The notes under the pieces were generated by a model that ran no database searches, was not told the origin of the DNA, and was given only the letters and a program-made list of their open reading frames with translations. Below are positions 12,200 through 60,532 of a stretch of DNA of 64,000 bases, one piece after another; within the stretch, counting starts at the first letter, position 1, and each line of letters begins with the position of its first letter. Both the position numbers and the translations under genes were made by a program. Origin of the DNA: Channallabes apus (Eukaryota > Chordata > Actinopteri > Siluriformes > Clariidae); NCBI GenBank assembly GCA_030522415.1, contig CM060109.1, positions 4,370,655 through 4,434,654 of the forward strand, given 5' to 3'.

Positions 12200-12214
12200 A
12201 AGTGTGGTTCTGGG

Positions 12215-13608: not shown

Positions 13609-13610
<2 letters not shown>

Positions 13611-13660
<50 letters not shown>
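13611..13660 (+). repeat. (GT)n microsatellite before env
   Basis: About 25 GT units followed directly by TTTTTTGCAG, a possible 3' splice site for an env message at about 13669. Confidence 0.9.
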
Positions 13661-13663
<3 letters not shown>

Positions 13664-14254: not shown

Positions 14255-14591
14255 CAGGGGCGGACTGGCCATCGGGAGCACCGGGACATTTCCCGGTGGC
14301 CTGACGGTCGTTCTGGCCTGCCGGCTGCCGCTGTGCAGACGATCAGCCTGGCATGTGATAGACTGGTGTGCAACTACTAATTAATTGACGAATCTCTCAA
14401 TCTACGAATCAGGCAATGGAAAGGGAAGATTAGACGATCAGGAGGGAAAAATTACACTCCCACATGACCTCTCACATGACCTCCCACATGACCCAACGTC
14501 AGCAGCGCACTGCCTAATATCTGGCTATATCCAGAGACAGGGTATATCTGACTAAATCGTTCAAAAAATGGAGCGTAAACGCAAAGGAGGA

Positions 14592-14631
<40 letters not shown>

Positions 14632-38736: not shown

Positions 38737-40268
38737 TTAAGGTATGTCTCTGGTATGAACACGCTGGTGTCGATACAAAGCACTCGGTCGATTAAAACGT
38801 TTCCCACACTCTAAGCACTGATGCGGCCTCTCTCCTGTGTGAATAAGCTGATGATCTTTGAGGGTACGTTGCTGAGTAAAACTCTTTCCGCACTCAGAAC
38901 ACTGATACGGCCTCTTTCCCGTGTGAATACTCTGGTGATCTTTGAGTTTACGTGGCTGAGCAAAAGTCTTTCCACACTCTGAACACTGATACGGCCTCTC
39001 TCCTGTGTGAAGGCGCTCGTGTTCTTTGAAACTACCTTGCAGAGAAAAACTCTTTCCACACTGTGAGCAATGATATGGCTTCTCTCCTGTGTGAATGTGT
39101 TGGTGGTTTTTTAAAGTACTGTGTACAGCAAACCTCTTTCCGCAGTGTGAGCAAATATACGGCTTCTCTCCTGTGTGAATGCGCTCATGTTTTTGGAGAT
39201 GACTCTTGCAATTAAAACATTTCCCACACTGTGAGCAGTGATACGGCGTCTCTCCTGTGTGAAGGCGCTGGTGTTCGTGAAGTCTACTCTGCCAAGGAAA
39301 TTTTTTCCCACACTGTGAGCACTGATAAGGCTTTTCTCCGGAGTGAGTGCGCTGATGGATTTGAAGGGATCTCTGATGAGTAAATTTTTTCCCACATTGT
39401 GAGCACTGATACCGCTTCTCTCCAGTGTGAATACGCTGATGTTGTCGAAATGTACTATCGTGAATAAACGTTTTTCCACACTGTGAGCAATGATATGGCC
39501 TCTCTCCGGTATGGATGCGTTGGTGTGCTTGAAGACTACCCAGCAGAGGGAAACTCTTTCCACACTGTGAGCACTGATATGGCTTTTCTCCTGTGTGAAT
39601 GCGTTGGTGGTTTTTTAAAGTACTGTGTTGAGAAAAACTCTTTTCGCACTGGGAACACTTATACGGCTTCTCGCCATTGTGAATGCGCTCATGTCCTTGG
39701 AGATGACTCTTGTAATGAAAACATTTTCCACACTGTGAGCAGTGATACGGCTTCTCTCCTGTGTGAATGCGCTGATGTCGGGAGAGATTACACCGCTGAG
39801 TAAATCTCTTTCCACACTGAGAGCATTGGTACGGCCTCTCTCCTGTGTGAATGCGCTGGTGATCTTTAAGGTTTCTTTGCCCAGGAAAACTCTTTCCACA
39901 CTGTGAGCAGTGATACGGCTTTTCTCCTGTGTGAATGCGCTGGTGTTGGGAGAGATTCCTCTGCCGAGTAAAACTCTTTCCACACTGTGAGCACTGATAC
40001 GGCTTTTCTCCTGTGTGAATGAGTTGGTGGTTTTTTAAAGTACTGTGTCGAGAAAAACTCTTTTCGCACTGGGTACACTTATACGGCTTCTCGCCAGTGT
40101 GAATGCGCTCATGTCCTTGGAGATGACTCTTGGAATTAAAACTCTTTCCACACTGTGAGCAGTGATACGGCTTCTCTACTGTATGAATGCACTCATGTGT
40201 TTTGAGGGCATTCTGATAAACAAAACTCTTTCCACAGTCTGAGCAGTGGTGAACAGTGTTCTTTGATT
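38737..40268 (-). CDS. prdm9: PRDM9-like exon 6: 18-finger C2H2 array
   Basis: Acceptor CTTTCACTTCCCCAG precedes 40268; phase 1 joins E259. I translated the whole exon on the minus strand: 18 consecutive 28-residue fingers of the form C-x2-C-x12-H-x3-H with TGEKPY-type linkers, residues 266-768, ending TAA at 38737-38739. No frameshift or degenerate finger. Variation is concentrated at helix positions -1, 3 and 6, the DNA contacts. Fingers 2-3, 7-8 and 13-14 share KSHLQ and HSTLKN helices, showing block duplication. Finger 1 lacks the TGEKP linker (TVEKP). The exon goes straight from ESKNTV to finger 1, so the post-SET finger of the family is absent. Confidence 0.93.
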
Positions 40269-43200
40269 CTGGGGAAGTGAAAGGAAAAAAATATCAGAAA
40301 CTGAACATTTTTCAATAACTTCCCTCTAGGGTAAAGGAGGGGATCTTAAACTTCTTGAGAGCTAAAGTCAAGCTGTACATGTTAGTCCTCCTGCCTAATA
40401 GGGTGCCACTGCAGATCCAGACAAGCCTGAAATTTTCAGGCTTATTTACTTTAAAATATAATTAAATAGAACTGAAGTGATTTACAGTAAGTATGAATAG
40501 ACTTTACCATTCGTGGAGGACTTTTTGTTCCACAGGTAGCCAAAGGCAGGACTGAGTGCTTTGGCGTACTTTTCTTCATACCACACTAAGAGCTCCTGTC
40601 CTGGGTTAATGGGTCGACAGCACCGATACAGAATTCCACCTCGATACTGAAATGCCACAAGATTCTGTTCATCATTACGAGCGCAATTCACGTACCTACA
40701 AGAAAGTGGCAGAAAGGGTGAAAAATTACATCAGAGTGACAGTTTAAGAAAAAGTATGAGACATACAACGGTGATAAGAATAAGAAATTCATTCCAAAAA
40801 TCAGGAGCTGTAAACTGTGACTAAACAAAGTTAAGCCTTTATTTGTCACATATACATTACTACACAGTAGTATGATTTGAATGATTCAGCACTCCTGGAG
40901 CAGATAGGGTTAAGGGCCCAACAATGGCAACCTGGTGAAGCTGGGGCCAGGGGTAGCTCAGTGGTTAAGGCACCAGAAGGTCCCAGGTTCAAAACCACGA
41001 CCACCAAGTTGCCACTGTTGGGCCCTTAACCCTCAACTGCTCAGATGTATAATGAGATAAAAATGTAAGTCGCTCTGGATACAGGAATCTACCTGTTGTC
41101 TAAATGTAAATGTAAACCACCGACCTTACGATCGGTAACTCGGTGCCTTAGCCCTCTGACCTACCACTGTACCAACAACTGGAGTCCTCACCTCATCCAA
41201 TTTGCATGCACTTCTCTTGTGGCATCTATGTATTCTTCATACTGCCTGCTCCTGTAGATCTGTAGAAATACACCATATATTTCCATTTTTTATTAATCAA
41301 TGAATGCCTTAAAATTAAATGAGGTGCACAGCCAAAGGAACCAGAATAAGGACAAACTGATCCATTATCATGAACACAGAAATAAATGTTCTTGATCATA
41401 TCTTTAGTTTTGCAGAAAAAGTTTTAAAGTAACTAAGAAAACTGGACCTACCAAACGTAGTCTGAGAAAGTGTCCTTGGGTTCTGGAATTCATGTGGATG
41501 TTTTTGACACAACCCACCTACCTACACATTGTTGCACACTAAGTATACCCTTCATGGAACATATTGCCTATTGATAGCTGCCTCTTTCAGTTGGATAAGG
41601 TCCCCTGCCCACTGGGAAAAAAAATGTCCATGAATGATTTAAGGTACATGACAGTTCAAATCGACATAACCTCCAAAGTCATCAAAGCTCAATCTGATCA
41701 AGCATATTTATGCAGCCCTGCCGTTGAGCCATCTATGGCATCAAAGGGTAAAGATCACCCTGGCCAAGTTCAGGGAAGACCATGGAAAGGGGCAGTGGTG
41801 GCTCATTGTGTTAAGGCTCTGAGTTACGGATCGGAAGATCGGCGGTTCGAGCCCCAGCTCCGCCAGGTGGTGAAGTGGTGAAGGTCAGGGATATAGTTAT
41901 TGAGAAATTTCAAGCAGGCTTAGGCTACAAAAAGATTTCCAAAGCCTTGAACATCCCACGGAGCCACTGTTCAAGCGATCATTCAGAAATGGAAGGAGTA
42001 TGGCACAACTGTAAACCTACCAAGACACGGCCGTCCACCTAAACTCACAGGCCGAACAAGGAGAGCGCTGATCAGAAATGCAGCCAAGAGGCCCATGGTG
42101 TCTCTGGACGAGCTGCAGAGATCTACAGCTCAGGTGGGGGAATCTGTCCATAGGACAACTATTAGTCGTGCACTGCACAAAGTTGGCCTTTATGGAAGAG
42201 TGGCAAGAAGAAAGCCATTGTTAACAGAAAACCATAAGAAGTCCCGTTTGCACAGCAAACATGTGGAAGAAGGTGCTCTGGTCAGATGGTCATCTTGTCG
42301 GCCAAAATGCATAACGCTGCGTGTGGCGGAAAACTAACACTGCACATCACTCTGAACACACCATCCCAACTGTCAAATATGGTGGTGGCAGCATTATGCT
42401 CTGGGGGTGCTTCTCTTCAGCAGGGACAGGGAAGCTGGTCAGAGTTGATGGGAAGATGGATGGAGCCAAATACAGGGCAATCTTGGAAGAAAACCTCTTG
42501 GAGTCTGCAAAAGACTTGAGACTGGGGCGGAGGTTCACCTTCCAGCAGGACAACGACCCTAAACATAAAGCCAGGGCAACAATGGAATGGTTTAAAACAA
42601 AACATATCCATGTGTTAGAATGGCCCAGACAAAGTCCAGATCTAAATTCAATCGAGAATCTGTGGAAAGATCTGAAAACTGCTGTTCACAAACGCGGTCC
42701 ATCTAATCTGACTGAGCTGGAGCTGTTTTGCAAAGAAGAATGGGCAAGGATTTTAGTCTCTAGATGTGCAAAGCTGGTAGAGACATACCCTAAAAGACTG
42801 GCAGCTGTAATTGCAGCAAAAGGTGGTTCTACAAAGTATTGACTCAGGGGGCTGAATAATTATCCACACCCCACTTTTCAGTTATTTATTTGTAAAAAAT
42901 ATTTGGAATCATGTATGATTTACGTTCCACTTCTCACGTGTACAGCACTTTGTATTGGTCTTTCACGTGGAATTCCAATAAAATTGATTCATGTTTGTGA
43001 CAAAATGTGGAAAAGTTCAAGGGGGCCGAATACTTTCGTAAGCCGCTGTATATAACTGCCAATACAATTGATTTAATTTACATGATCAATAAATTTGTTG
43101 GTTGTTGGATACTGATGGAAACATCAGGACAATCACAGCTGTTCTCATCTCATAGCACAGAAATATCTTGTTCCTCTACCTTCAGCAGTCATGCAGTTGC

Positions 43201-46200
43201 TGGTCTTGTAATTGGTAATATCACACCTGCCGTGAGTGGTTGTTGATGAAGTGAGCCTTAATCTTCCTCTTATAGGCTGCTTAAGCATCCTTAATCCCCC
43301 CCTTTTAGGTTGGCCCCCTCTGCCCTCTGGATCTGTCTGACTTGTCCTGGTATCCCGCTTTTGGTTGGAGATCTTGTCACATGTGTGGTCTGCCTGGGAT
43401 GCGTGTGGTAACTGGGGACGGTTCCACTTTAACATGAAGACACTCTTGGCTTCGGCTGATGCAGACACCTATTTCTGCGAGGACTCTTGACTGCAGTCAT
43501 TCGATAGTTCAGGACTAGAGTTTCCTACAGTCTATCTGAGCCTCCAAAAATGAACTGGAATCATATTAACTTATACTGTTATACTGAATTTCCAGTCTCA
43601 GATAGTATGATGCGGATCAATCCTTGCTATCCGTTTTCACCCAAATGAGGATGGGTTCCCTGTCGAGTCTGGTTCCTCTCAAGGTTTCTTCCTACCGCCA
43701 TCTCAGGGAGTTTTTCCTTGCCCTTGTTGCCGTCGCCCTCAGCTTGCTCATCAGGGACAATCTGATCAGATTGATTCATTCCATCCACATTTCATACAAA
43801 ATTCTTTCATTCTATTCATTCTGTAAAGCTGCTTTGCAACAATGACAATTGTTAATTTAATTTCTTTGTCTACTGTGACACTGTCGCATTCTTATGCAGC
43901 AATGTACTGATAATATATAGCCTCATAACAGAGTATGACCACAGATCAATTCCTGCTATCTGGAGAGCAGAGTCAGCTCTTCGAGCAAGACCTAACCTCT
44001 TGAGGTCCGAATGCATGTAGAGGACATGACATTTCCTCATTTACTACACTGTCTAAATTTTGTGAAACAAAAATTTATTCAGTTTGAATCAGGATTCTAT
44101 TGTGTGCTGATTCATGTATCGTCACACTGGTGCCAAAACCTTTTAAAAACTATTTATTACATTTATAATAGAGATGAACCGGTTGGTCGGTCAATAACCA
44201 GAATCGGCTGGTTTACAGTTTGCGCGTGACTGGTGATCAACCTCATATATAAAGATTTTGGAGCTTCCGAGTGGCACAAGAGAAACAATTTTTTTGGTGT
44301 TGGAGCTGTGAGAATTATTCTTAAACACGACCATTAAACATGCTTACACCAGTCTCAAAACACTGTTAAAAATCACTCAGTTAAAAATCGCATGCGTTAG
44401 AACCCACTCGCAGCCATTCAACCCGTATAGAGGCATTTGAGGGAGTAATACTTCGCCATTTCTTTATAATCCTACAGGTGGCACTCTAAACTATTCTCAC
44501 ATTTCCATTCAAATAACTCATTCACACCATTCTGTGTGGTGCGAATGAATTATTTGCCAAGTTCGTTTAGAAATAATAATTATGGCGCTGCTCAGTAACA
44601 AGTGGCTTTGTGTTTCATTTAATTAGAAATTAAATGTTAAACTCTTGTATTTGGAGCTAAACTGTATTGTTTTAATGCTGTACTTGTTAATACGTATCCT
44701 AATTATATATTTGGCAGAAGTGTTTGCAGGCTTATGTACGTTGTATTACTCTGGCTTAAAGTGAAAAATTTATTTAGCTTGTAAAAATGTTGGTACTCTT
44801 GTGTGAATTTAACCTTGACAAGTTTTTTAAAGCTTAAACAACATATGCATGTAATTTCATTCAAAAGCACATTTGGTGAAACTCAGTTGTTTTATATGAA
44901 TAGATCTCTGAAAAGAGTTTGGAGTGATCATAATATATTTTAGTTATTAGCAGGCTGATGGACCTCAAGCTGTGTTTAAAGTGTCTCCACACATAGTCAG
45001 TAAGAATAAACTGATTAATTGAAGTAACCTTTAATTAGTGGTAACATTTTGCTGTTTAAAAACGCACATATATTAAAAATCTTTCTGATTAAAATTTATC
45101 TATTTATAAACTCACCACCCAGGAGTATCCGCTGTTCTTGGCTTCCTCTCGGTCTACTGTCTCTCCCTGGTAGGGTCCGAAATGTGCACCTACTGGAACA
45201 GTCTCCCCCTTATTAAACACTCCCAGACCTGCATCAGGAATACTGGACTTCTGAATCTCTAGTCCAGGAGGAAGAGTTAGTCTGGCTCGGTCAGAGACGC
45301 CCACGGGAACAGGAGTATCAGGGATGAAGAGAGGCAGGCCATGTACCTCACACTTGTTGAAGAAGACGGATTTGCAAACCTCACAGTCTGGGAGTAGAGA
45401 AAACACAATGGGAAACAATGATGTCATATGTTTCTTTTACTGTAAGTGTCCGTATATCTGAGGAAATATACAGTGGCTTAAAGGTTTAAGGCTCTGATCG
45501 GAAGGTTGGGTTTTTTTTTTTTTTTAATTAAAATTACATTAAACATTTGAATAAAGTAAGCACTAAGAAATTGTTAGACTTTTCAATGAATAGAGTATCA
45601 GCCATAATTCAATTACATTACAATTGCACAATCAATTGCTATTACAGTAAATGATAAAGATTATGTTAAGTCAACATGATTCTTTCACACAAGTTCAACA
45701 CGAATGAAATACTTTGGCTTAGCAGGCGAAAATTGTGTAATTTGGCCACATTTTGATGATGTGGGACTGATGTACACATTAAAATCAAGTAATTTCAAAG
45801 GATTCTTTTTTCAGTGTACAGTGAGGTCAATAAGTATTTGATCACCGTGTGATTTTGCAAGTTTTCTTACTTAGAAATCATGGAGGGTCTACAATTTTCA
45901 GCATAGGTGCATTTCTGTGGGAGACAGAATCTAAAAAGAAAAATCCGGAAATTACATTGTATGATTTTTTTTAACAATTTATTGGTGAATAACGGTGTCA
46001 AAAAACAATTTGATCACTTATCAGCCACATTTCTGACCCTCAAAGATCTGTTATTTTGCTTTTAAATAGTCCAGCTACACTCTGCTCATGATTCTAAATT
46101 AGAAGAACCTGTTTGAGGTCGTTAGCTGTCATAAAGACACCTGTGCACCCCACAATCAGCCAAAATCAAAGAGCTGTCAAAAGACACAAGAGACAAAATT

Positions 46201-49200
46201 GTAGACCTTCACAGAGCTGGAAAGGGCTACGGGGCAATTGCCAAGCAGCTTGGTGAAAAAAGAACAACTGTTGGAGCAATTGTCAGAGAATGGAAGAGGC
46301 TAATGATGACTGTCAATGTCCCTCGGACTGTGGCCCCACGGAGGATCTCTCCTCGTGGGGGATCAACAATGCTAAGAATGGTGAAGAATCAGCCCAGAAC
46401 TACACGAGAGGAGCTGGTCAATGCCGTGAAGAGAGCTGGGACCATCGTTTCCAAGGCTACTATCAGTAATACACTAAGACGTCATGGTTTAAAATCTTGC
46501 ATCGCACAGAAGGTTCCCCTGCTTAAGTCAGCCCATGTCCAGGCCCATCTGAAGTTTGCCAGGGCCCATCTGGATGATACAGAGGAGTCATGGGAGAAAG
46601 TCCTGTGGTCAGATGAGGCCAAAGTAGAACTTTTTGGTCTTAACTACACTCGCCATGTTTGGACGAAGAAGAATGATGAGTATCATCCCAATAATACCAT
46701 ACCTACAGTGAAGCATGGGGCTGGAAGCATCATGCTCTGGGGGTGTTTTTCTGCACAGGGGACAGGATGACTGGACTGTGTTAAGGAGAGGATGAACGGG
46801 CCATGTATTGTGACATATTGGGCAAAAACCTCCTTGCCTCAGTCAGAGCATTAAACATCGGTCGTGGCTGGGTCTTCCAACATGACCCAAAGCACACAGC
46901 CAGGAAAACCAAGGAGTGGCTCCGGAAGAAGCATATCAAGGTTCTGGAGTGGTATAGATAGTCTCCAGAACTAAATCCAATAGAAAATCTTTGGATGGAG
47001 CTGAAACTTCATGTTGCTCAGCGACAGCCCCGAAACCTGACAGATCTAGAGAAGATCTGTATGAAGGAGGGGGTCAAAATCCCTCCTGCAGTGTGTGCAA
47101 ACCTGGTGAAGAACTACAGGAACCGTTTGACCTCTGTAATTGTTAACAAAGGCTTCTGTACCAAATATAAATTATTTTTTTACTCAAGTGATCAGATACT
47201 TATTTGACACAGTAATTCACAAAGTGCAATACAATGTGATTTCCGGGTTTTTTATTTTTAGATTCGGTCTCACACTGGAAATGCACCTATGCTGAAAATT
47301 GTAGATCTATTATAGAATTCTAAGTAAGACAACTTGCCAAATCACAGGGTGATCAAATACTTATTGACTTCACTGTATATATATATAAAAAAAAAAAAAA
47401 CAATGGAACTTTTTATAAAGAAAAAATATCTTGCACATAGCTTTGCCTCTTCCTGAGAAACTGAAAGAAACTAAATAAAATCAGTGCCTTATGAAATCAT
47501 GAAATGTATAAGTTATGGTATGAACAGTATTTCTCTCAGAAAGGCTTACACTTATATAATTTATTCTAAATCTATGAATGAAGAAAAGTTCATAGTCGTT
47601 ACCTCTGGCCTAATGAAAAAGTGTACAGTGGAACCTCGGATTACGAGCATAATTCGTTCCGGAAGCGGGCTCGTATTCCAAAACACTCGCAAACTAAATA
47701 AAATTTTCCCATAAGAAATAATGGTAAGGGGGGGCGCTGTTGAGCTTGTGAAGGAGTAGGACGTGTTTTGGGAGGCTCCGGAGGATTATTATTAAAAAAT
47801 TGTTATTAAATTGCGCTTTCCAGTTTTAATTTTAAAAATTCTTCCCCGTTAGCAGTCTTATTTATATATTTGTCTCTAAAGGCGGTTACAATGTCCGGTA
47901 AAAATTCTAAAACCCGTAGCACAAGGCAGTCACAACTCAGGCCTAATCCACAGGTCACGGCCGCACCTTCGCGTGAATTGCCACCGCGCGCTGACCCCAC
48001 GGTTCACCAGGCAGTCTCTGATTGACACGGGTGCGCTGAAGCTCGAGATATTGTCCTCATTGAGGAACGAAATCGCGGATATTTTTAAGGCGGAACTGCG
48101 TGCTGCATTGGGGGATGACTTGTCTACAATTAAACCGGAATTACAGGCTGTAAAGACGCAACTGGCTAATGACAAGGCCGCCATTGATGCTGGACTGTCT
48201 GTGCTAAAGGGTACCATAGGGGAGATGGAGCGCTCGCTCTCTAATTGTACCGATGGTCATCGGGGTTCTCTCGCGGCACGGCTGCGCATGCGCGCGTGAG
48301 CGTAACCCCGGAACCAAGGCACCGTTGTCTTGGTGACGAAAATAACCGACTGGGGCCAGTTTGTTGGTGCAGGTGAGCAACATTAGCTCCTAGTTCATTC
48401 CCCTGCTGTTTAACTGCCCCTTTATGTGGCCGCGCTACAGGCTGATGAAGCAAAAGATTACATCAAAACTATCCAAACTGCGTGAACTATACTGGTAGTT
48501 TTTTTTATAGTTCGTTATACATTTTATTTGAATTCTGTTTTGTTATGTGTGATGTTAACATTTTCTGATGCTACCTCTGTCTATACAAGCTTCTTATTTT
48601 ACAAAGTTAGTATTTTTGATTGATATATTGCATTCCAGCTGTTATGTCGTTTTGGGAACCAAATATTTAACTTATGCCAATATGTATTATTATGCATGCC
48701 TGGTCAATGTATGAGGGGTGATCCTAGCAGTATCCTCTAGGGTTTTCTTTTTCTGTTGTTGCTGATGCTGTTGTTTTTTTCCTCTTCTCTTTTTTTCTCT
48801 CAAGTTGGATGTCATTTACTTGTACATTATTATAAGCTGGAGATGAGAATACTTCCATTTGCACATTATTTTTGTTCTATTTAATCTGTGGGAGCCTTTT
48901 TGTTTTCTTTTGTTTAGTTTTTTTCCTTCTACATCGGGCTCTCTCTACGAGTCGTGGCCACAGTTACTGTGAGAGCGACTTTTGTTTTAGTTAGTTTACT
49001 TTGCCGTCTCCTAGGGTTTGTTAGGATGGAGACTAGGGCTGCACGATATTAGGAAAATATGCGATATGCGATATTGTTGAATACTGCGATAACGATATTT
49101 CTTGCGATATAACATTTCCCTAGAGAAATGCATTTTTTTATTATTATTATTGCCTATTTTTTTTATTATTTATTTATTTATTTATTTATATGTAATGATC

Positions 49201-49960
49201 ATACTAAAATAAACAGGTAATAGATATTCGTCTGATGTAATTAAATCTAATTCAGGCTAAAAAGAAACTATATGTCAAGGAAGTTGCAAATATTTAGACT
49301 TCAAAACACTATGAATGACTTAAAACCCTCAGCAGATATTCTGACTTCTGGTTTGCTGTTACTATAAACCTGCCAACACAATATGAATTACTTTCAAACA
49401 TTACTTTATATTTACATGTAACCATACACTCATCAATAGTGTCTTAAAACAAGAGCATCTTTTAAACTAAATATTCTCTTTGGCTTGTCTGTTTTTTTTT
49501 TTTTTAGAAAAATAAATATTATTAAACAAAAATGTAATAAAAAAAATACTATTTGTCACACACACACACGCGCACACACACACGCACGCACACACGCTCC
49601 GCGACCGGCACTAGGACCCAGAAGTAATGCGGGCGCAAACCCGGAAGTATAAGAGGAGTAAACAAACTAGTGCATACAGCTTAGTCACTGTGTTCGCCAT
49701 GTCGGTTCAGATTCGAGTGCGTGTTTATAGGACGCGGGTTAAATGTGTGTTTTTCCTTTGCTCCCCTTCTGTGAGAGTCCTTAAACTAATTCACGTGGTT
49801 ATCCTGCCTACTCGCTTGCTTCCGCGTTTGGGTTTACCGTCTATAAAGGGCTAACGGCTAATCGCGGCGAACGGCTAATCGCTAAATCTTCTGATCATCC
49901 GGGGTTAGTTCGCGACAGAATGAAGTATAAAGATATAAATAATATATATATATATATATA

Positions 49961-50003
<43 letters not shown>

Positions 50004-53000
50004 ATATAAGCGGGTATAAACATAGTAAGGGCCCATCTGATTGGGCAAATTTGGACACACAAATGCTTGGCAAATAAAGTATTTATACTCCTTGCGATAT
50101 GGTTATCGCGCATGCCATTATCGCGATAACGATATTTTTTCGATATATCGTACAGCCCTAATGGAGACTTTAGATTTGTGTTTGAGTGCATGTGCGGGGG
50201 AGGGGGAGGGGGGTGTCATCCTTCAGGCTCTTTGTGAATCCTTATGATTTCCACAATTTTTTGGCTAAATGGCTAATTCCTATGTAGGCCCAAGTTTAGC
50301 TGGGAGTGGTACACCTGTCCGTTTCCTTAGCTGGAACATCAGAGGTATGGGTAATCCAATTAAAAGATCTAGGGTATTTAATCACCTGAAACGTTTACAT
50401 ACAGATATAGTGTTTTTTTTTACAAGAAACACATCTTCAAGTTAAGGATCATCATAGGCTTCTTCGTCCTTGGGTAGGTCAAATATTTAATTTTAAGTCA
50501 CGGGGTGTGGCCATATTAGTTAACAAAAAGAATTGATTATTTTTTCATTGACCGTCATCTTAACCCTTCTGTTGTTTCTTCAGATTATTTAAGTATTGTA
50601 ATTTCTGACCATGCTCCCTTATCACTGGATATACAATTATCAATGCATAAACAAAACATCGTCTTGGCGATTTAACTTACATCTTTTATCGGACAAAGTT
50701 TTGTACATTCATTTCTAACACTATTGATGAATTTTTGTTGTTTAACCAACTTGAGTCCACTTCTTATTCGTTATTATGGGAAACTCTCAAGGGTTATCTT
50801 AGAGGGCAAATTATCTCATACTCTGCTTTTCTAAATCGAAGTCGCAAGACTAGGCTCAACGAACTCACATCTGCTATTAGCAAGCACGACCATATTTATG
50901 CATCTAATCCTTCTCCAGAGTTGTACAAGCAGCGCATTGATTTACAAACAGAATTTGATCTTTCAACTAAAGAAACAGAACGTATGTTGCTGCAGACTCG
51001 GGGAACATATTACGAATATGGTGATAAATCAAGTAGATTGTTAGCACATCAGCTAAAACGACAGCATGCCTCACGCCTAATACCACAAATTAAAAATGAC
51101 TTAAATGTTATCACTACTGATCCCATGGAGATCAACGCATTTTTTAAATCATATTACTCGTCCCTTTATCAATCTGAATGCCTTAAATATGATATAAAAT
51201 TGGATGATTTCCTTCGAAGTATTGATATTCCGGTTATTGATACAATATCTGAAAGGGACTTGGACTCTCCATTATCTCTTGAAGAAATCATAGTTTCAAT
51301 TAAGTCAATGCAGTCTAATAAAGCTCCAGGCCCAGACGGTTTTCCAATTGAGTTTTATAAAAAGTTTATAGATAAATTGGCACCATTGCTTCTTGGTGTG
51401 TTCAATGAATCCCTAGACCAGGGCTCATTACCATCTCCTTTTAACCAAGCCTCAATTGCTCTTCTTCTTAAAAAGGGAAAGCAATGATAGTGGCCTACAG
51501 TATATGATCCACACTGAAGGGGATCATATACTGTAGGCCACTATCATTGCTGAATGCTGATGTGAAAGTTCTGGCTAAAGTAATTGCATCCCGTTTAGAG
51601 GATGTATTACCACATGTTATATCTGAGGAGCAGACCGGTTTCATAAAAGGACGGCATTTATGTTTTAATACTCGTACACTTTTTAATATAATTTACTCAA
51701 AACAAACATCTGTATTACCTGAGGTTGTAATTTCACTGGATGCTGAGAAAGCTTTTGATAGGGTTGAGTGGGAATACTTGTTTGCAGTATTAAAGGAATT
51801 TGGGTTTGGTGATACATTTATTTCTTGGATTCGCCTTCTTTACAAATCCCCGCAAGCTAGTGTTCATACAAATTATATAAGCTCTGATTATTTCACTCTT
51901 GGGTGTCACCACTGCTTTTTGCCCTTGCTATTGAACCATTGTCTATTAAGCTTATATCTTCTCTTGCTTTTAAAGGTATTACTCGTAATGGGTTGGAGCA
52001 AAAATTATCCCTATATGCCGACGACTTGTTGTTATATGTTACTGATCCTGCAGCCTCTATTCCTGTTATTTTAACCATTTTGGATAATTTTGGTTCTTTC
52101 TCTGGGTATAAACTAAATTTGCATAAGAGTGAATACTACCCAGTTAATAATAATGCTTTACAGCTTCAGCATCTAAACCTGCCTTTTAAACTCAATTGTT
52201 CAGGCTTTATATATCTTGGTATCACAGTGACTCGTTCTCTATCTGACCTTTCTCATGCCAACTTTTCTTCTCTTATTTCCGATATCTGATATTCAGAGAT
52301 GGAGCAATTTGCCTCTTTCTTTAATTGGAAAAATCAATGCAGTTAAAATGACCATTCTTCCTAAATTTCTTTATTTTTTTCAATCACTCCCTTTATTTCT
52401 TCCTAAGTATTTTTTGATTCCTTAGATAAAATCATAATCTCTTTTCTTTGGAAAACCTCCTAGAATCCGTAAGACCTTACTACAGAGATGTAGACTTAGT
52501 GGTGGACTAGCTCTGCCTAATTTTCTAATTTACTACTGGGCTGCACAAATTCAAAAATTAAACATTTTGGATAAACTCATCTGAATCCCCATCCATCCAT
52601 CCATCCATCCATCTTCTTCCGCTTATCCGAGGTCGGGTCACGGGGTCAGCAGCTTCAGCAGGGATGCCCAGACTTCCCGCTCCCTGGCCACTTCTTCCAG
52701 CTCTTCCGGGGGGATCCCAAGGCGTTCCCAGGCCAGCCGAGAGACATAGTCCCTCCAGCGTGTCCTGGGTCTTCCCCGGGGTCTCTTTCCGGTGGGGCGT
52801 GTCCGGAACACCTCACAAGGGAGGCGTCCAGGGGGCATCCTAAACAGATGCCCAAGCCACCTCATCTGGCTCCTCTCAATGCGGAGGAGCAGCGGCTCTA
52901 CTCTGAGCCCCTCCCGGATGACTGAGCTTCTCAACCTATCTCTAAGGGAGAGCCCAGACACCCTGCGGAGGAAACTCATTTCGGCCGCTTGTATTCGCGA

Positions 53001-56000
53001 TCTCGTTCTTTCGGTCACTACCCACAGCTCATGACCATAGGTGAGGGTAGGAACGTAGATCGACCGGTAAATTGAGAGCTTTGCCTTTTGGCTCAGCTCC
53101 TTCTTCACCATGACGGACCGATACAGAGCCCGCATCACTGCAGACGCTGCCCCGATCCGCCTGTCGATCTCCCGCTCCATTTTACCCTCACTCGTGAACA
53201 AGACCCCGAGATACTTAAACTCCTCCACTTGGGGCAGGATCTCACTCCCAACCCTGAGAGGGCACTCCACCGTTTTCCGGCTGAGGACCATGGCCTCAGA
53301 TTTGGAGGTGCTGATTCTCATCCCAGCCGCTTCACACTCGGCTGCGAACCGATCCAGTGAGAGCTGTAGGTCGCAGGATGATGAGGGCAACAGAACAACG
53401 TCATCTGCAAAAAGCAGTGACCCAATCCTGAGCCCACCAAACTGTACCCCCTCAATGACCTGGCTGCGCCTAGAAATCCTGTCCATAAAAATTATGAACA
53501 GGATCAGTGACAAAGGGCAGCCCTGTCGGAGTCCTACCCTCACCGGAAACAGGTCCGACTTACTACCGGCAATGCGGACCAAGCTCCGACACCGGTCGTA
53601 CAGGGACCGGACAGCCCTTACCAGGGAATCCAATATCCCATACTCCCGGAGTACCCCCCACAGGACTCCCCGAGGGACACGGTCAAATGCCTTCTCCAAG
53701 TCCACAAAGCACATGTAGACTGGTTGGGCAAACTCCCATGCCCCCTCCAGGACCCTGCTAAGGGTGTAGAGCTGGTCCACTGTTCCGCGACCTGGATGAA
53801 AACCACACTGCTCCTCCTGAATCCGAGGTTCGACTATCCGACGGACCCTCCTTTCCAGGACCCCTGAATAGACTTTCCCGGGGAGGCTGAGGAGTGTGAT
53901 CCCTCTGTAGTTGGAACACACTCTCCTCTCCGGTCCCCCTTCTTGAAGAGGGGGACCATCACCCCAGTTTGCCAGTCCAGAGGCACTGTCCCCGATGTCC
54001 ATGCAATGTTGCAGAGACGTGTCAACCATGACAGCCCTACAACATCCAGAGCCTTGAGAAACTCCGGGCGGATCTCATCCACCCCCGGGGCCCCGCCACC
54101 ATGGATCTTTTTGATCACCTCGGCCCCAGAGATGGAAGAGTCCACCTCTATGTCCCCAGACTCTGCTTCCTCATCGGAAGGCATGTTGGTGGAATTAAGG
54201 AGGGCTTCAAAGTACTCCCCCCACCGACCCACAACGTCCCTAGTCGAGGTCAGCAGCGCACCATCCCCACTATACACTGTGTTGACCGTGCACTGCTTTC
54301 CCCTCCTGAGACGCCGGATGGTGGACCAGAATTTCTTCGAAGCCGTCTGGAAGTCATTCTCCATGGCCTCCCCAAACTCCTCCCACGCCCGGGTTTTTGC
54401 CACAGCAACCACCGAAGCTGCATTCCGCTTGGCCTGCCGGTACCTCTCAGCTGCCTCCGGAGTGCCATCAGCCAAAAAGGCCCGGTAAGACTCCTTCAGC
54501 TTGATGGCATCCCTCACCACCGGTGTCCACCAACGGGTTCTTGGGTTGCCACCGCGACAGGCACCGACCACCTTACGGCCACAGCTCCGGTCGGCCGCCT
54601 CGACAATGGAGGCGCGGAACATAGTCCGAATGTCCCCCACCTCCCCCAGTACGTGGTTGAAGCTTTGCCGGAGGTGGGAGTTGAAGCTCGTCCTAACAGG
54701 GGACTCTGCCAGACGTTCCCAGCAGACCCTCACAATACGTTTGGGTCTACCAGGCCTGACCGGCATCCTACCCCGCCAACGAAGCCAACTCACCACCAGG
54801 TGGTGATCAGTTGACAGCTCCGCCTCTCTTTTCACCCGAGTGTCCAAGACATGTGGCCGCAAGTCCGACGATACGACCACAAAGTCGATCATCGAACTGC
54901 GGCCTAGGGTGTCCTGGTGCCAGGTGCACATATGGACACCCTTATGCCTGAACATGGTGTTCGTTATGGACAATCCGTGACGAGCACAGAAGTCCAATAA
55001 CAAAACACCGCTCTGGTTCAGATCGGGGGCACCGTTCATCCCAATCACGCCCTTCCAGGTCTCACTGTCATTGCCCACGTGAGCATTGAAGTCTCCCAAC
55101 AGAACGATGGAGTCTCCAGGAGGGACGCTCTCTAGCGCCCCCTCCAGAGACCCCAAAAAGGGCGGGTACTCCAAACTGCTGTTCGGCGCTTAAGCGCAAA
55201 CAGTAAGGATCCGTCCCCCCACCCGAAGGCGGAGGGAGGCCACCCTCTCGTCCACTGCGGTGAACCCCAATGTACAGGCCCCGAGCCGGGGGGGCAATAA
55301 GTATGCCCACACCTGCTCGTCGCCTCTCACCGGTGGCAACTCCAGAGTAGAAGAGAGTCCAGCCCCTCTCAAGGAGACTGGTTCCAGAGTCCAAGCTGTG
55401 CGTCGAGGTGAGTCCAACTATATCTAGCCGGAACTTCTCAACCTCACACACTAGCTCAGGCTCCTTCCCCGCCAGAGAGGTGACATTCCACGTCCCTAGA
55501 ACCAGCTTCTGCAGCCGAGGATCAGACCGCCAAGGCCCCTGTCCTCTGCCACCGCCCAGCTCACACTGCACCCGACCTCTTTGGCCCCTCCTACAGGTGG
55601 TGAGCCCATGGGAAGGGGGACCCACGTTGCCTCTTCGGGCTGTGCCCGGCCGGGCCCCATGGGTGCAGGCCCGACCACCAGGCGCTCGCCATCGGGCCCC
55701 ACCTCCAGGCATCTGAATCCCCATGGTGCAAATTATAGTTACTGTCTTGTAAACCATCCTGTATATTAGCTCTACTTTGCACTTCATTTCCAATCAAACC
55801 CACTCAATACACTGATAACCCAGTGCTACTCAACACACTTAAGATTTGGTATCAGTTTAGATGGCTCTTTAAATTTGGATCTGTGTCAGCAATGGGTCCA
55901 TTGCATAAAAATCATTTGTTTCCCCCGTCACTTTTAGATTCAGCATTTTCATCATGGCACGACAAAGGCATCACAGATTTTTATCATTTGTATGAAGATG

Positions 56001-59000
56001 GAGTATTTAAAAGCTTTGCTAATCTGTTCTCTGAGTATGAGCTGCCCTCAGCTCATTTCTTTCGCTATCTGCAAATTCGCAACTTTGTATCCAAGCGCTT
56101 TCCTAATTTTCCTTCTGTACCTCCCGAGCTGCCCTGGGAGAATCTGATCACATTTAATCCCTATCGGCAAGGTGTGATAATATATAATTTTATTTTATCT
56201 TTTGGTGATTGTAAAATCGCTAAAGCCAGAGCTGTTTGGGAAAATTAACTGGGATTGCAGTTGAGTGAGGAATGTTGGGAGAAGGCTATAGACAGGATAC
56301 GCTCCAGCTCTTCATGCGCCCGTCTCAGTCAAATTCAGTTTAAGGTTTTGCACAGAGTCCATTATTCCAAATCAAGGCTAGCAGAAATATTTCCTGATGT
56401 TGAGGATAGATGACAGTGACAGATGCCACGCCTCTCCCTGTAATTTATGTCACATGGTTTTTTTGTGCCCAAACCTGCACAACTTTGACAGGTTTTTTTA
56501 ATCTCATGTCCACTATACATGGGGTACAGTTGAAGCCATGTCCATTAACTGCTATATTTGGCATTACAGATGTTTCAGTCACGTTAAGTTCTGCACATAA
56601 AGATGTCGTCGCCTTCTCATCTTTGTTGGCAAGACGTACAATACTTTTACACTGGAAGTCCCTCAATCTCTCAGTGGATTAAAGATTTATTATTTTTTCT
56701 TAAGCTAGAAAAGATAAAATATACACTGAGAGGTTCTAATAATGTTTTTTCACAAATGGCAACCATTTATTGCTTATTTTGCAGGCTTACAGGTACTGCC
56801 TGAATGATTATCTGGATTGGGTCAAGTATCGGAATGTATGTACGACCAATCTAATTCACATAGATTGGGTTGAGCCGAAGGATAATGGGGTGCGTGCGTG
56901 TGTGTGTGTGTTTTAGGGTATGTTCGGGGTGGTTAGGGAGTTTTTCATTTTTCTTTTCATCTAATAATAATAATACATTTAATTAGTTGCTTTCGATATA
57001 TTTATGTATGTTCAATTGTTTAATAAAAAAAATTTTGAAGAAAAAAAAGAAATAATGGAAACTTAAAATTATTCGTTCTACAGCCCCAAAAAAAAAAAAT
57101 TATTCATACAAAATATAAAGTAAAAATTAAACAAATTAACCTGCTCTTTACCTATAAAAAAACTAAATAATAAATTCCGACAGATAAGTGTGTGTGTGGG
57201 TGTGTGTGTGTGTGTGAGAGGCTAGAGTAAGTGAAGACACTTGCTTTCAGCCCCTCCTGTCTCTCCCTTCTCATCTTACACTGTAAAACTCTCCTCTCGT
57301 CTGAAGACACACACACATTAACGGAAAGACTGTTGTTCTCTAATCCAAATTATTAAAACTTCTCCACTTTATTTTAATGTTGCTCGCGACCGGGTAACAG
57401 CCCGTTAATTAATGCTTGTGTAATGGTGAGATGGACAAACTGGTCGATGTCCCCGTTCTTTTATTTTCTGCATTGTCAGGGTATAGTACAAACTTTCGGG
57501 TGGATCCTGCATTTAATCCAACTAAAAAAACTACTGAAGAACAAAACGCAGGCTCTATATCCTAATTTTACATCTTGCATTCGCATTCAGTGCCGGCACT
57601 GCATCTACCTACAATGCATCTCCCGCACTGGACTACACTTCCGTAAACAGCGGTCATAAATCAACATCTCTCTCCTGCTGATTTAATCTGAAAAAAAAAA
57701 AAAAAAACGATAAACATCGCTAATGACACTCGTGTGAGCGCAAACAGAAACAATGCTGTAAAATAAAACAAAAACAAACCGCACCTTAGCTTACTCCAGT
57801 GGTTCTCAAAGTGTGGGGCGCGCCCCACTAGTGGGGAATACAGACATGACAGGTGGGGCACAATGAACGGGAGGAAATTAGTGGAAAATACTAGGAAAGT
57901 ACCTATTCTAATTCATGCTTTTCTTTATTGATAATGAAGAGCGTACGCTCAAAACTAAACAATCACACACAAATAAATGGATCATTAATACAAGTAAATT
58001 TAAAATAACATCAGTTGTGGGCTGGGAGAAAAAGTGGAACCATAGTGGAACAATAACGGTTTAACGTCGGACAAACTTGAGCAGCTGCTCGAATCACAAA
58101 CCTGCGCGAGCCACTGGGCAGCGCTGCGCGACTCTGACAGAAATAAATCGCGCCGACCATCAAAATAAATTTTACCCAGCTGGGATGCGCACGTACAAAC
58201 CAGGCATGGCAAGGCGGAAACAATATTAAACAGTCCTGACATTTTAAATTGTTTTTAAATAAAAACATAGTGGGTCGCGCAGGTTTGTGATTCGAGCGGC
58301 GCTGCGCGATCCACCGGGCTGCGCAAATAAACCAGATCATCACTGCGCTATCCAGATAGTCGCGCTGCGCTGTATTTGCACAGATATTTGGTTCAATCGG
58401 GTGCCGCGGTTTCGTCCCACTTTTGATGTGTTTGGCTTCACATACACTTCGACAATGGAAGAAGACGTTGCAGCAGCAGTGAGTTTGCTTACATGTGACA
58501 AAACCAACAATGAGGAGATTGTAAAGAAAAAAGCTGCCTCGTCTGTGGTGTGGAATTGGTTTGGGTATAAGAAAAGTGATACGGATGAGATGAACGTGAT
58601 TTGGAAGGTACACAAGTGCACTGTTTTAACAAGTGGTGGAAACACATCAAACCTTTTCTATCATCTGAAATCCAAACGTCCAAACGAATATGGCCAAAGT
58701 AAAAAAAATGTGGCAAACCTCAGCAATTCACAGTTTAAATAAAATTACATTAAAAAAATAAAATTATGTAAAACAATTTCTTTGTGTTTTCATTTTTATT
58801 TATTCATTTTCAGATACAAATTGCTATATTGTGATATATATCGTTATTGAGTTAGAAAATTGCTTCTACCGTGATAGAAGATTTTGGTTATATCGCCCAC
58901 CCCTAATGAAGTCTATCTTCAGCTTGGATTCATGGTGGTGATGGTGGGGGCAGAGGAGAGGCTCGTGTGTGTTTTGTGTCTTAAACTGCTGGCAGCAGAC

Positions 59001-59476
59001 TGCATGAGACCCAACAAATTAGGAAGACACTTAGAGACAACACACTCCAGTCACGTTAATAAACCACTGGACGTCTTTGAAAGAAAGCTGGCAGAATACA
59101 GACAGCAGGATAATCGCATGGTAACATCTGAATCAGTGGACAGCAAAGCACAAATGGCTTCATTCAAAGTTACATACAGAATTGGCCAGTGCAAAAAAAC
59201 TACAAACGATTGCTGAGCAGCTAATAAACATGGGGTCAATTATGCAAAGATAAGTGACAACGTGAGCCTTGTAACAATTGCACGTGTATTTTATCTTTTT
59301 TTAACTTGGTGGTGTTTGATCGTATTGGTTTAGGAATTGATATTTCAATAAACAGTAAACTTGGCCGATTTCGTTATTATTTTGTTGACAAGTGGGGCTT
59401 GAAAATTCGCTCAACCCCTTAAGTGGGGAATGACAGAAAAAGTTTGAGAACCACTGGCTCACTCTGTGTGTCAGAG

Positions 59477-59537
<61 letters not shown>

Positions 59538-60532
59538 AGAAACAAACGCACACACGCACATGCGGCCGGCACGGTGTCGGGTTGCAGTGTTGAGCTGAGG
59601 AAGAATTTTTATTTTTTTTTTAACCTCTGTATTGAGAATTTCTTTTGCTTTACTCACGCGACCACATGTGTGTTATGAGAAACGGTACACGCGCTGTACA
59701 CACGCGCTTCTGAACACAAAATAAAATGTTTTACACTCACGCGTGCACGGATGTTGATTATACCAGTAGGAGACGAGCACTAAGACCCAGCAGGGGAGAC
59801 TATTACTCACAATTTGCCGCGCAAGAGAGGGAAAAAACTTTGGCGCAGATGTGATGACGTGACACTCGGCGTCAAAACAAGAAGCGCATGCGTGATACAT
59901 GATACTCGCTGCTCTTAAACCAAGACAACACTCGTTTTCCAAAAAAAAAATTATTAAAAATCTTTGCTCGTCTTGCGGAACACTCGTAATCCACGTTACT
60001 CGTAATCCGAGGTTTCACTGTATTGTGCTTTTAAATGCACTAGATAGTGTGTAGGGTGCAGCATTAGTGATGTCTTACACAGGTAGTCTTTATGGTCAGG
60101 ATCTTCCTCTTTAAGGCAGAGATCTTCAGGTGTGTTGTTGAGGTCGTGCTCATTTTTGTGGATGTCCAGCTCCAGCGTCTCCTCTTTCTTCACACAGTCT
60201 TCTGACACTTCAGGGGTCTCTCCATCTGGAGTCTCAGTTTTCATGTTCTCACAAACCTAAAGACCAAACAATAACACTGACTCAGAAAAGTTTTGATTTC
60301 CTTTTACACCGCTCGTTCTGTATAAAGAGATTTTGTGTGATTAACAGGACAACATGTAGACCAGCAGGGAAGCAGAGCAATAAAATACAAGCAGTGGTTC
60401 AACTTTAACCTGTTATTGTAATTATTGCTTTTTTGTAAAATAATTCATCATTAATCATCGTACCTGTAAGAAAGGAGGATACGGAGCTTGAGGCCGGCCG
60501 AAGGGGCGCTGTGTGTCTCCTTCTGTACTCAT
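38737..60532 (-). CDS. prdm9: PRDM9-like histone methyltransferase, six exons
   Basis: Join of 60464-60532, 60079-60256, 45116-45387, 41192-41259, 40508-40695 and 38737-40268 on the minus strand: 2307 nt, 768 residues, no stop, all introns GT-AG with matching phases (0,1,0,2,1). Domains: acidic N-terminus (1-82), zinc motif C84-x2-C87/C95-x2-H98, PR/SET (about 99-250), 18 C2H2 fingers (266-768). Tyrosines 155, 219 and 235 line up with human Tyr276, Tyr341 and Tyr357. PRDM9 trimethylates histone H3 Lys4/Lys36 at sites its fingers bind and so places meiotic recombination. KRAB, SSXRD and the post-SET finger are not seen. The start is the first ATG of exon 1, but a 3'-splice-like site just upstream leaves room for a further 5' exon. 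Expression is not shown. Confidence 0.9.
40508..40695 (-). CDS. prdm9: PRDM9-like exon 5: C-terminal half of SET
   Basis: Acceptor CTTTCTTGTAG, donor ATG|GTAAAG; 188 nt, phases 2 in and 1 out. Encodes [18 protein letters not shown], then ILYRCCRPI (Tyr219) and [10 protein letters not shown] (Tyr235), the substrate and cofactor pocket of PR/SET. Very close to the PRDM9 pattern and unlike most other PRDM proteins. Confidence 0.93.
40828..41172 (-). mobile_element. tRNA-derived SINE, outer copy
   Basis: The minus strand starts GGTACAGTGGTAGGTCAGAG at 41172 (tRNA-like A box), has GGTCGGTGG at its B box, and ends near 40828. It is interrupted by a second SINE at 40943-41116 in the opposite orientation. 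It lies in intron 4 of the PRDM9-like gene. Confidence 0.75.
40943..41116 (+). mobile_element. tRNA-derived SINE, nested copy
   Basis: Plus strand GGGGCCAGGGGTAGCTCAGT, B-box-like CCCAGGTTCAAAACC, tail TAAGTCGCTCTGGATA and CTAAATGTAAATG. Same family as 739-935. It interrupts the outer SINE between its GGTGGTTT and CCCAGCTTCACC. Confidence 0.8.
41192..41259 (-). CDS. prdm9: PRDM9-like exon 4: central SET segment
   Basis: 68 nt, acceptor TATTTCTACAG, donor ATGAG|GTGAGG; phases 0 in, 2 out. Encodes [20 protein letters not shown] then WMR, matching the short PRDM9 exon that ends ...ANWMR|YVNCAR. Identified from phase and family pattern; too short to show as an open frame. Confidence 0.88.
41797..41875 (+). 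mobile_element. tRNA-like SINE head fused to Tc1 remnant
   Basis: GGGGCAGTGGTGGCTCATTG, then GCGGTTCGAGCCCC as B box; the SINE body is missing and Tc1 transposase sequence begins about 41880. The fragment near 45473-45530 is a more decayed relative. Confidence 0.65.
41880..43048 (+). mobile_element. Tc1 element, 5' end missing
   Basis: Begins inside the transposase N-terminal region and runs to a preserved right terminal repeat (CCGAATACTTTCGTAAGCCG then CTG at 43048) followed by TA. No left TIR is present. It lies in intron 3 of the PRDM9-like gene. Confidence 0.9.
41883..42842 (+). pseudogene. Tc1 transposase, broken
   Basis: [20 protein letters not shown] gives the DNA-binding region (frameshift near 41965), [11 protein letters not shown] the AT-hook-like linker. 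The catalytic part is VLWSD near 42275 with a stop soon after, [11 protein letters not shown] near 42540 and [11 protein letters not shown] near 42640 (DD34E spacing). A deletion before VLWSD removes part of the region that normally precedes it. Frame 42321-42842 is the intact C-terminal portion. Confidence 0.9.
43230..43870 (+). mobile_element. L2 3' UTR
   Basis: GGATGGGTTCCCTGTCGAGT, CTGGTTCCTCTCAAGG and GCTGCTTTGCAACAATGACA mark the L2 tail. No RT sequence remains. In intron 3 of the PRDM9-like gene. Confidence 0.85.
43871..45115. other. Rest of intron 3
   Basis: No coding region. Contains a transposon-end-like stretch at 44170-44235 (GATGAACCGGTTGGTCGGTC) and the dispersed repeat at 44429-44510. 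Confidence 0.5.
44429..44510 (+). repeat. Dispersed repeat, copy 2
   Basis: CGCCATTTCTTTATAATCCT then ACAGGTGGC, matching 2837-2925 with a few changes. Confidence 0.7.
45116..45387 (-). CDS. prdm9: PRDM9-like exon 3: pre-SET zinc motif and N-SET
   Basis: 272 nt; acceptor TTTCTCTACTCCCAG, donor GGGTG|GTGAGT; phases 1 in, 0 out. Encodes [17 protein letters not shown] (C-x2-C, C-x2-H zinc motif), [20 protein letters not shown] and [11 protein letters not shown] (Tyr155), ending NSGYSWV. Motif order is the same as in mammalian PRDM9. Confidence 0.93.
45388..45816. other. Intron 2, 3' part
   Basis: No gene. A SINE-head-like scrap at 45473-45530 (GTTTAAGGCTCTGATCGGAA) ends in a poly-T run. Confidence 0.5.
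45819..47375 (+). mobile_element. Tc1/mariner transposon
   Basis: TA on both sides (45817-45818, 47376-47377) and matching ends: CAGTGAGGTCAATAAGTATT on the left, and the inverse of TACTTATTGACTTCACTG on the right. A third Tc1 family, distinct from those at 19374 and 41880. It lies in intron 2 of the PRDM9-like gene. Confidence 0.93.
46160..47207 (+). pseudogene. Tc1 transposase, broken
   Basis: [20 protein letters not shown] and [20 protein letters not shown] form the DNA-binding half. [23 protein letters not shown] and the [11 protein letters not shown] region form the DD34E core. Frame 46303-46770 ends in TGA after CFSAQGTG; the second aspartate lies in another frame, and the C-terminal part is 46995-47207. 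Stops near 46850, 46960 and 46980 in the intervening frames rule out activity. Confidence 0.88.
47378..47623. other. Intron 2 spacer
   Basis: A-rich, no feature seen. Confidence 0.5.
47891..48299 (+). pseudogene. L1 ORF1
   Basis: Starts [20 protein letters not shown], basic and low-complexity, then after a stop or frame change near 48022 continues in 47973-48299 as [20 protein letters not shown] and further heptad-like sequence, a coiled coil. This is the layout of fish L1 ORF1 RNA-binding proteins. The C-terminal RNA-binding part is not recognisable. Confidence 0.65.
49554..49917 (+). repeat. Solo Gypsy LTR inside the hAT element
   Basis: Starts TGTCACACACAC and ends CGCGACA; matches the Gypsy LTR at 4888-5271 (opposite strand) along its length. 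No clear target duplication is seen, so capture by another route is possible. Confidence 0.78.
49946..50000 (+). repeat. (TA)n microsatellite
   Basis: Two TA runs separated by a short AAATAA break. Confidence 0.9.
50323..52300 (+). pseudogene. L1 ORF2: endonuclease and reverse transcriptase
   Basis: The endonuclease start [20 protein letters not shown] and [10 protein letters not shown] is followed by a large deletion near 50535 to its end ([13 protein letters not shown]). RT: 50735-51487 includes [18 protein letters not shown]; 51547-52074 includes [31 protein letters not shown] and [13 protein letters not shown]; after a frame change near 51900, 51903-52289 has [12 protein letters not shown] and the catalytic [10 protein letters not shown] palindrome at 51480-51551 interrupts it. 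Retrotransposition enzyme of an L1, inactive. Confidence 0.9.
51480..51551. repeat. Perfect 31-bp palindrome, 10-nt loop
   Basis: Arms 51480-51510 and 51521-51551, e.g. CAATGATAGTGGCCTACAGT on the left, pair without mismatch around ACACTGAAGG. The right arm is normal L1 coding sequence (CRPLSLL); the left arm is its inverted copy and ends the reading frame at KKGKQ. Confidence 0.93.
52638..54029 (-). CDS. LINE reverse transcriptase, long open frame
   Basis: 463 codons. RT blocks: [76 protein letters not shown] and the catalytic box [11 protein letters not shown]-terminal: [38 protein letters not shown] and [19 protein letters not shown], then a basic [14 protein letters not shown]. It ends at the element's 3' tail. 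The N-terminal part overlaps the endonuclease frame by about 200 bp in another register, so one frameshift separates them. RT core residues look intact. Confidence 0.9.
53834..55709 (-). pseudogene. LINE endonuclease and linker
   Basis: Frame 55174-53834 has the endonuclease end: [38 protein letters not shown] and [14 protein letters not shown], then a linker with [20 protein letters not shown] and the RT start [20 protein letters not shown]. The N-terminal endonuclease ([28 protein letters not shown]) lies in 55793-55068 in another frame. Frame breaks near 55200 and 53950 separate endonuclease, linker and RT. Confidence 0.87.
55725..57046 (+). pseudogene. L1 ORF2 C-terminal region and 3' UTR
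   Basis: 55823-56248 reads [39 protein letters not shown] and [20 protein letters not shown], the C-terminal domain of fish L1 ORF2. A stop follows at 56246-56248; later scraps continue in other frames to about 56660. The 3' UTR ends in an A-rich tail before the target duplication. Confidence 0.82.
57059..57788. other. Body of the outer TA-flanked element
   Basis: (TG)n-rich sequence near 57190-57220 and no recognisable transposase. Confidence 0.45.
57797..59456 (+). mobile_element. hAT element with BED-type transposase scraps
   Basis: Ends CAGTGGTTCTCAAA and inverse TTTGAGAACCACTG. Flanking octamers GCTTACTC (57789-57796) and GCTCACTC (59457-59464) match at 7 of 8, the hAT target duplication. 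It lies in intron 2 of the PRDM9-like gene. A near-identical partial copy is at 61055-61745. Confidence 0.9.
58287..59216 (+). pseudogene. hAT BED-finger transposase fragments
   Basis: 58287-58742 contains [12 protein letters not shown] and a BED-type finger region ([30 protein letters not shown]) in which one zinc cysteine pair is not seen. 58743-58905 is the right-hand end of another transposon (TATATCGCCCACCCCTAA). 58884-59216 is from a different transposase of the ZBED/SCAND3-like type: [56 protein letters not shown]. No DDE/RNase H core is present. A composite of pieces, not a working gene. Confidence 0.8.
59480..59534 (+). repeat. (TG)n microsatellite
   Basis: About 27 TG units just after the hAT element. 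Confidence 0.95.
60079..60256 (-). CDS. prdm9: PRDM9-like exon 2: acidic linker
   Basis: 178 nt; acceptor TTTGGTCTTTAG, donor CTGT|GTAAGA; phases 0 in, 1 out. Encodes [40 protein letters not shown] and ends DPDHKDYL, which joins YCEVC of exon 3, just as DYLYCE reads in mammalian PRDM9. Acidic, no folded domain recognised; no SSXRD motif. Confidence 0.88.
60464..60532 (-). CDS. prdm9: PRDM9-like exon 1: N-terminus
   Basis: ATG at 60532-60530, donor TTACAG|GTACGA, 69 nt, phase 0. Encodes [20 protein letters not shown] then FLQ. No KRAB sequence. Just upstream on the minus strand, ATCTTTTTTAG before ATCTATTATAATG resembles a 3' splice site, so this could be an internal exon with the true start further out; the frame stays open to that site. 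Confidence 0.7.

Follow-up and report, generated by a model that had tools for sequence, protein, structure and literature searches.

A KRAB-less PRDM9-alpha gene within a tandem cluster of the clariid catfish Channallabes apus

Gene structure and PRDM9-alpha membership

The PRDM9 family is known for choosing where chromosomes recombine. A PRDM9-like gene is found on the minus strand of a 64,000 nucleotide stretch of the Channallabes apus genome (C6:4370655-4434654, here termed the window; the searched genome comprises 1.165 Gb in 93 contigs), arranged as six exons separated by five introns with GT-AG ends and compatible phases. When joined, the exons give 768 codons and a single terminal stop, with no internal stop. 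A six-exon, stop-free frame of 768 residues, with GT-AG sites and agreeing phases, had been put forward in the original prediction, and both its coordinates and its joins were reproduced; the accompanying statement that exon 6 has no open frame beginning with Met also holds, as the only Met residues of the protein are 1, 28 and 195, none of them in this exon. The features are listed below, where P is the share of amino-acid diversity falling at the contact positions -1, 2, 3 and 6 of the fingers.

60464..60532, minus strand: exon 1, 23 codons with the ATG at 60532-60530, open, with a GT donor
60079..60256, minus strand: exon 2, acidic N-terminal region, GT-AG, with no KRAB or SSXRD match in Pfam
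45116..45387, minus strand: exon 3, zinc knuckle (45338-45385) and first part of PR/SET, matching PRDM9 in the PDB
41192..41259, minus strand: exon 4, middle of PR/SET
40508..40695, minus strand: exon 5, end of PR/SET, one codon fewer than in 20 other cluster copies
38737..40268, minus strand: exon 6, zinc-finger exon with the terminal stop, without Met codon, proximal finger or linker
38740..40251, minus strand: finger array of 18 contiguous 28-residue C2H2 fingers, P = 0.304
45170-45172, minus strand: catalytic Tyr155 (human Y276), in exon 3
40626-40628, minus strand: catalytic Tyr219 (Y341), in exon 5
40578-40580, minus strand: catalytic Tyr235 (Y357), in exon 5

The start of exon 1 coincides with residue 1 of the PRDM9-like proteins annotated in Clarias and Ictalurus, and residues 1-84, including the start Met, align with the annotated catfish models P0018, P0021 and P0044 from their first residue onwards. 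The encoded protein consists of a zinc knuckle, a PR/SET domain with all three catalytic tyrosines and 18 contiguous C2H2 fingers, in that order. The zinc knuckle precedes SET, SET is spread over three exons and the fingers lie within one, which is the PRDM9 plan and is the same in PMC11703093 (this and the other publications cited are drawn on in the parts consulted). The array begins directly after SET, lacking the proximal finger that in some copies is set apart from it by a linker, and the SET domain is one codon shorter than in all 20 of the other cluster copies examined; a one-residue gap close to the missing codon is also present in the database relatives P0002, P0030 and P0031.

That this gene structure is real, far beyond chance, is confirmed by the match of the SET part to solved PRDM9 structures in the PDB (215 bits, E 8e-63), with PRDM11 (147 bits, E 6e-42) and PRDM12 (83 bits) scoring lower. 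In a 47-row SET tree, named beforehand as the test able to refute the family assignment, the gene was placed in PRDM9 and not elsewhere, relative to a sole non-PRDM9 outgroup, PRDM11, the long branch of which meets the long lamprey branch. Within PRDM9, it falls among catfish PRDM9-alpha sequences, inside teleost alpha (support 97/89). The PDB matches and the tree thus agree with the earlier identification of the SET and zinc motifs as being of the PRDM9 type, and membership of PRDM9-alpha is shown.

Neither KRAB nor SSXRD was found by a Pfam search of the window protein. The N-terminal parts of 12 PRDM9 proteins from other vertebrates (13 were taken, with one shorter than 60 residues dropped) had no match at E 0.1 in the window and 22 loci, and family searches of the whole genome, run without a positive control, returned zero matches to KRAB and zero to SSXRD. 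The SSXRD segment of the electric eel, including its acidic tail, did not match exon 2 of the window gene (P0001) at E 0.01, and weakly matched some other catfish proteins (P0107, P0092 and P0018 among them; 40-56% over 16-27 residues). Among the fish proteins within the best 120 of 629 database matches, KRAB homology was confined to Electrophorus (P0091) and Brachyhypopomus (P0094), with none seen in catfishes. A missed upstream exon encoding KRAB or SSXRD was considered and rejected, there being no match in the window or loci and annotated relatives sharing the start Met.

The lack of these two domains is a feature of all beta genes according to PMC5519329, which would be compatible with the window gene being a PRDM9-beta. 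This identity is scarcely conceivable given the rest of the gene, which has a single long array and retains tyrosines at all three catalytic positions (YYY at 276, 341 and 357), and was rejected on the tyrosines together with the SET tree, in which the gene lies in alpha and a separate clade (100/99) unites the five beta-type rows, all of them from outside the catfishes. Four of these five have tyrosine substitutions (FYY, FYY, FFY and YYH), unlike the window gene. More widely, all three tyrosines are present in 190 of the 220 relatives in a SET alignment, and one is missing from 29 of 174 relative rows, which include many catfish copies at 69-85% identity to the window gene as well as gar and bat sequences. 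Some of these may be gene-model errors; they contrast with the statement in PMC5519329 that no alpha gene has lost its catalytic tyrosines.

The original prediction described the surrounding DNA as almost wholly mobile elements, and many ORFs in the window do read like transposases and reverse transcriptases. For instance, ORFs resembling those of Tc1/mariner transposases are found at 46-47 kb, in intron 2, and at 41.5-43 kb, in intron 3, while on the plus strand successive ORFs at 7388-16714 resemble retroviral gag, pol/integrase and env, suggestive of a putative retrovirus-like element. Matches to the 218 kb of cluster loci or to itself cover 43-47% of the window, a figure that includes the exons of the gene and its paralogs.

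The tandem cluster and catfish relatives

The original prediction described the gene as hidden, but it is neither hidden nor singular: PRDM9-like relatives are annotated in several catfishes, and at least 22 matches to SET exon 5 (PF21549), the window gene included, lie within approximately 1.5 Mb at C6:3.42-4.91 Mb, 21 of them on the minus strand. This copy number is based on PF21549 alone and is a lower bound. Further PF21549 matches, which may belong to alpha, beta or other PRDM genes, lie on several other contigs.

Twenty-one copies were examined, these being the window gene and 20 of the other 21, with the match at C6:4500509 left out. Exons 4 and 5 are open with AG/GT borders in every one of these copies, which seems to be new, and no stop is present in exon 3 of the 12 for which this exon was in hand. 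Y341 and Y357 are likewise kept in 21/21 copies, and Y276 in 12/12 with exon 3 in hand. Pooled values of pN/pS for SET, from Nei-Gojobori counts, are 0.53 over exons 4 and 5 (210 pairs of 21 copies) and, over exons 3-5, 0.42 (55 pairs of 11 copies); hence the domain is constrained across the cluster, though perhaps loosely. A finger ORF was present in the fetched stretch of 17 of the 21 copies, with the array of L019 split over two ORFs; for L027, one of the remaining four, an ORF with seven fingers lies in the neighbouring sequence. L009, L010, L026 and L028 retain the proximal finger with its linker, and the direct SET-to-array layout of the window gene is common to L015, L018, L020, L021, L023, L024 and L025, nine fetched copies being left out of this assignment. 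Upstream of L026 lies an exon 2 that is 88% identical to that of the window gene.

The top database matches are from Clarias magur, and the nearest relative by SET identity is P0017 of C. gariepinus, among the best 120 of 629 matches. Its SET domain is 93% identical to that of the window gene, but it has only eight fingers and keeps the proximal finger; P0014 of the same species, at 90% SET identity, has 13 fingers and similarly lacks the proximal finger. Neither is a clear 1:1 orthologue of the window gene. Elsewhere in the cluster, L012 is 99% identical to C. gariepinus P0024. These identities are in keeping with a clariid genome.

Amplification of KRAB-less PRDM9-alpha in catfish has been published, with 34 candidates reported in one Clarias species (PMC11600626), and the window gene itself is one more gene of this kind. 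Partial alpha genes of Ictalurus punctatus (PMC5519329) and of class I (PMC11600626) likewise combine SET with an array, retain the tyrosines, are amplified and lack KRAB and SSXRD; the window gene differs in its 18 fingers, in the absence of the proximal finger and in a SET domain shorter by one codon. Neither tandem organisation nor selection on contact codons is described in the consulted parts of this literature, and both were absent from the titles and abstract openings of the matches listed by a search for PRDM9 in catfish, Siluriformes or Clarias. PMC4379976 mentions PRDM9 in catfish only as a future question, in the parts consulted. When compared with complete mammalian and salmonid PRDM9, the window gene shares the zinc knuckle, the PR/SET domain by sequence, the three tyrosines and the terminal array, yet is without KRAB, SSXRD and the proximal finger, and its array is less homogenised.

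Divergence of the finger arrays

Of the 20,475 sets of four finger positions in the window array, 16, counting the contact set itself, reach the diversity of the contact positions. Its P is ordinary for partial alpha genes, since Ictalurus alpha genes range from 0.253 to 0.320 and those Ictalurus arrays with values of 0.303-0.306 rank 24-25 of 140 in their own genome (PMC5519329, Table 1). For complete, hotspot-setting PRDM9, the benchmark is an array among the top 5% of its genome in contact-site diversity. Among the best 120 of 629 matches, 96 have arrays of at least four fingers, with a median P of 0.298 over 95 (Triplophysa being left out). Thirteen in this set have P of at least 0.4 with at least six fingers, comprising 12 catfish proteins and one from Electrophorus; none is from Clarias, and 16 C. 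gariepinus values span 0.244-0.313. Five Neoarius graeffei copies (P0060, P0064, P0055, P0051 and P0061) have P of 0.42-0.62 yet have lost one catalytic tyrosine, and high contact diversity can therefore occur without all three.

The closest array to that of the window gene is L015. Over their 15 shared fingers, the contact codons exhibit 14 nonsynonymous and no synonymous differences; pN/pS is 2.09 at contact positions (Fisher p 0.032) and 0.48 at other positions (p 0.051); nonsynonymous change at contact relative to other positions differs with p 8e-5, all p values being uncorrected. Of the 136 possible pairs between 17 arrays, 26 pass a threshold of our own setting (at least six fingers and 0.85 identity). 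In all 26, pN/pS exceeds 1 at contact codons (1.06-2.62) and is below 1 at the non-contact finger positions, although the pairs share copies and so are not independent. An excess of amino-acid change at the contact codons of close cluster arrays is thereby shown, even if finger misregister or gene conversion could inflate the contact differences. Two neighbouring copies have more homogenised arrays: L026 (C6:3828500-3838400) has 13 fingers with a mean nucleotide identity of 89% and P of 0.489, and L028 (C6:3879700-3889600) has 5+11 fingers with P of 0.378 and 0.392. Along 4 kb of gene and flanking sequence, both have 94-95% identity to L027, yet only two of 13 aligned contact quartets are shared between L026 and L028. 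Published values for partial PRDM9-alpha reach at most 0.331 (PMC5519329, Table 1), which both exceed. The contact-codon excess and the homogenised neighbouring arrays beyond published P seem to be new.

These patterns bear on whether the window gene is a passively amplified copy, mostly neutral or decaying. It lacks KRAB, SSXRD, the proximal finger and one SET codon, constraint may be relaxed, as a pairwise pN/pS of about 0.5 suggests, a catalytic tyrosine is missing from several catfish relatives and the array of L019 is split. Such decay is nonetheless unlikely, being difficult to reconcile with the intact 18-finger frame, the freedom of exons 4-5 from stops and splice damage in 21 copies and the low ratios at non-contact finger positions in every close pair.

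Predicted role of the cluster

The reading that we favour, with moderate confidence, is of a clariid PRDM9-alpha, lacking KRAB and SSXRD and belonging to a cluster of at least 22 copies over 1.5 Mb, that acts as a sequence-specific H3 methyltransferase and is probably not a hotspot setter. The window protein would most likely bind copy-specific DNA through its 18 fingers, and its catalytically intact SET domain would then most likely methylate nearby histone H3 at K4 and K36, an activity that might be weaker for want of one SET codon. In the absence of KRAB and SSXRD, the protein would probably, unlike mammalian PRDM9, not pass these sites on to the machinery that makes meiotic breaks. In this reading the cluster behaves like other fast-evolving zinc-finger families, in which duplication generates copies, SET being kept here as the base-reading residues are driven apart. 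The pairing of conserved catalytic residues with contact residues in flux points to a methyltransferase that is directed to particular targets, which shift over time; we infer the expression, enzymatic activity, target and biological role of the window protein from its sequence.

The hotspot-setting role implied by the original prediction did not gain support, as KRAB and SSXRD were not found and published work ties this role to the complete protein (PMC5519329, PMC8892340). Retention of the three tyrosines, diversification of the contact sites and the presence of neighbours with homogenised arrays would each suit a gene that still sets hotspots without these domains. Furthermore, a zf-CW exon on C14 has ZCWPW1 as its best match (E 1e-10, compared with 4.5e-7 for MORC3 and 0.004 for ZCWPW2). 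ZCWPW1 is a reader of H3K4me3 and H3K36me3, such that, judging from this ZCWPW1-like exon, a reader of PRDM9 marks seems to be retained in the genome. Eight of the 13 zf-CW matches lie within 0.6 Mb elsewhere, at C6:22.5-23.1 Mb (L031, L033-L039), where the CW domains read as MORC-type and may represent a tandem MORC expansion. A hotspot role for the window gene is still improbable. The domains were not found in the protein, in the loci or, by searches run without a positive control, in the genome; in published work, fast evolution of the array and control of hotspots accompany complete PRDM9 (PMC5519329); and siluriforms have been scored as having lost PRDM9, 3/3 being without ZCWPW2 and one without ZCWPW1 (PMC8892340). 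Around 22 paralogs of differing specificity also fit poorly with a single setter.

The main rival explanation is that these genes make up a zinc-finger family directed against transposons, the copies of which track mobile elements in a catfish parallel to KRAB-ZNF and the cyprinid FiNZ-ZNF genes. This is a genuine possibility, if a less probable one. It would accommodate a tandem cluster in DNA with many transposon-like ORFs, the 138 distinct contact quartets among the 205 fingers of 17 arrays and the sign of positive selection at contact codons. Set against it, a PRDM9-type SET domain lays down H3K4 and H3K36 marks, not the H3K9me3 used in KRAB silencing. FiNZ-ZNFs constitute a published precedent in fish, and the FiNZ-ZNF and KRAB-ZNF clusters, like that of the catfish, consist of physically clustered copies under positive selection, but have FiNZ or KRAB, encoded by a short effector exon, where the catfish cluster has PR/SET (PMC10547256).

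The predicted function of the cluster is thus that of a set of histone methyltransferases, each directed to its own targets and diversifying. The broader proposal, that clariid PRDM9-alpha forms a multi-gene, KRAB-less and catalytically intact battery with specificities under ongoing positive selection, and that rapid PRDM9 finger evolution thus does not depend on KRAB, SSXRD or the designation of hotspots, is advanced only tentatively. As copies lacking KRAB combine an excess of contact-codon change with, in two cases, homogenised arrays, the rule linking rapid finger evolution to complete PRDM9 becomes directly testable, and with it the question of whether the erosion of hotspots or another arms race drives the evolution of the fingers.
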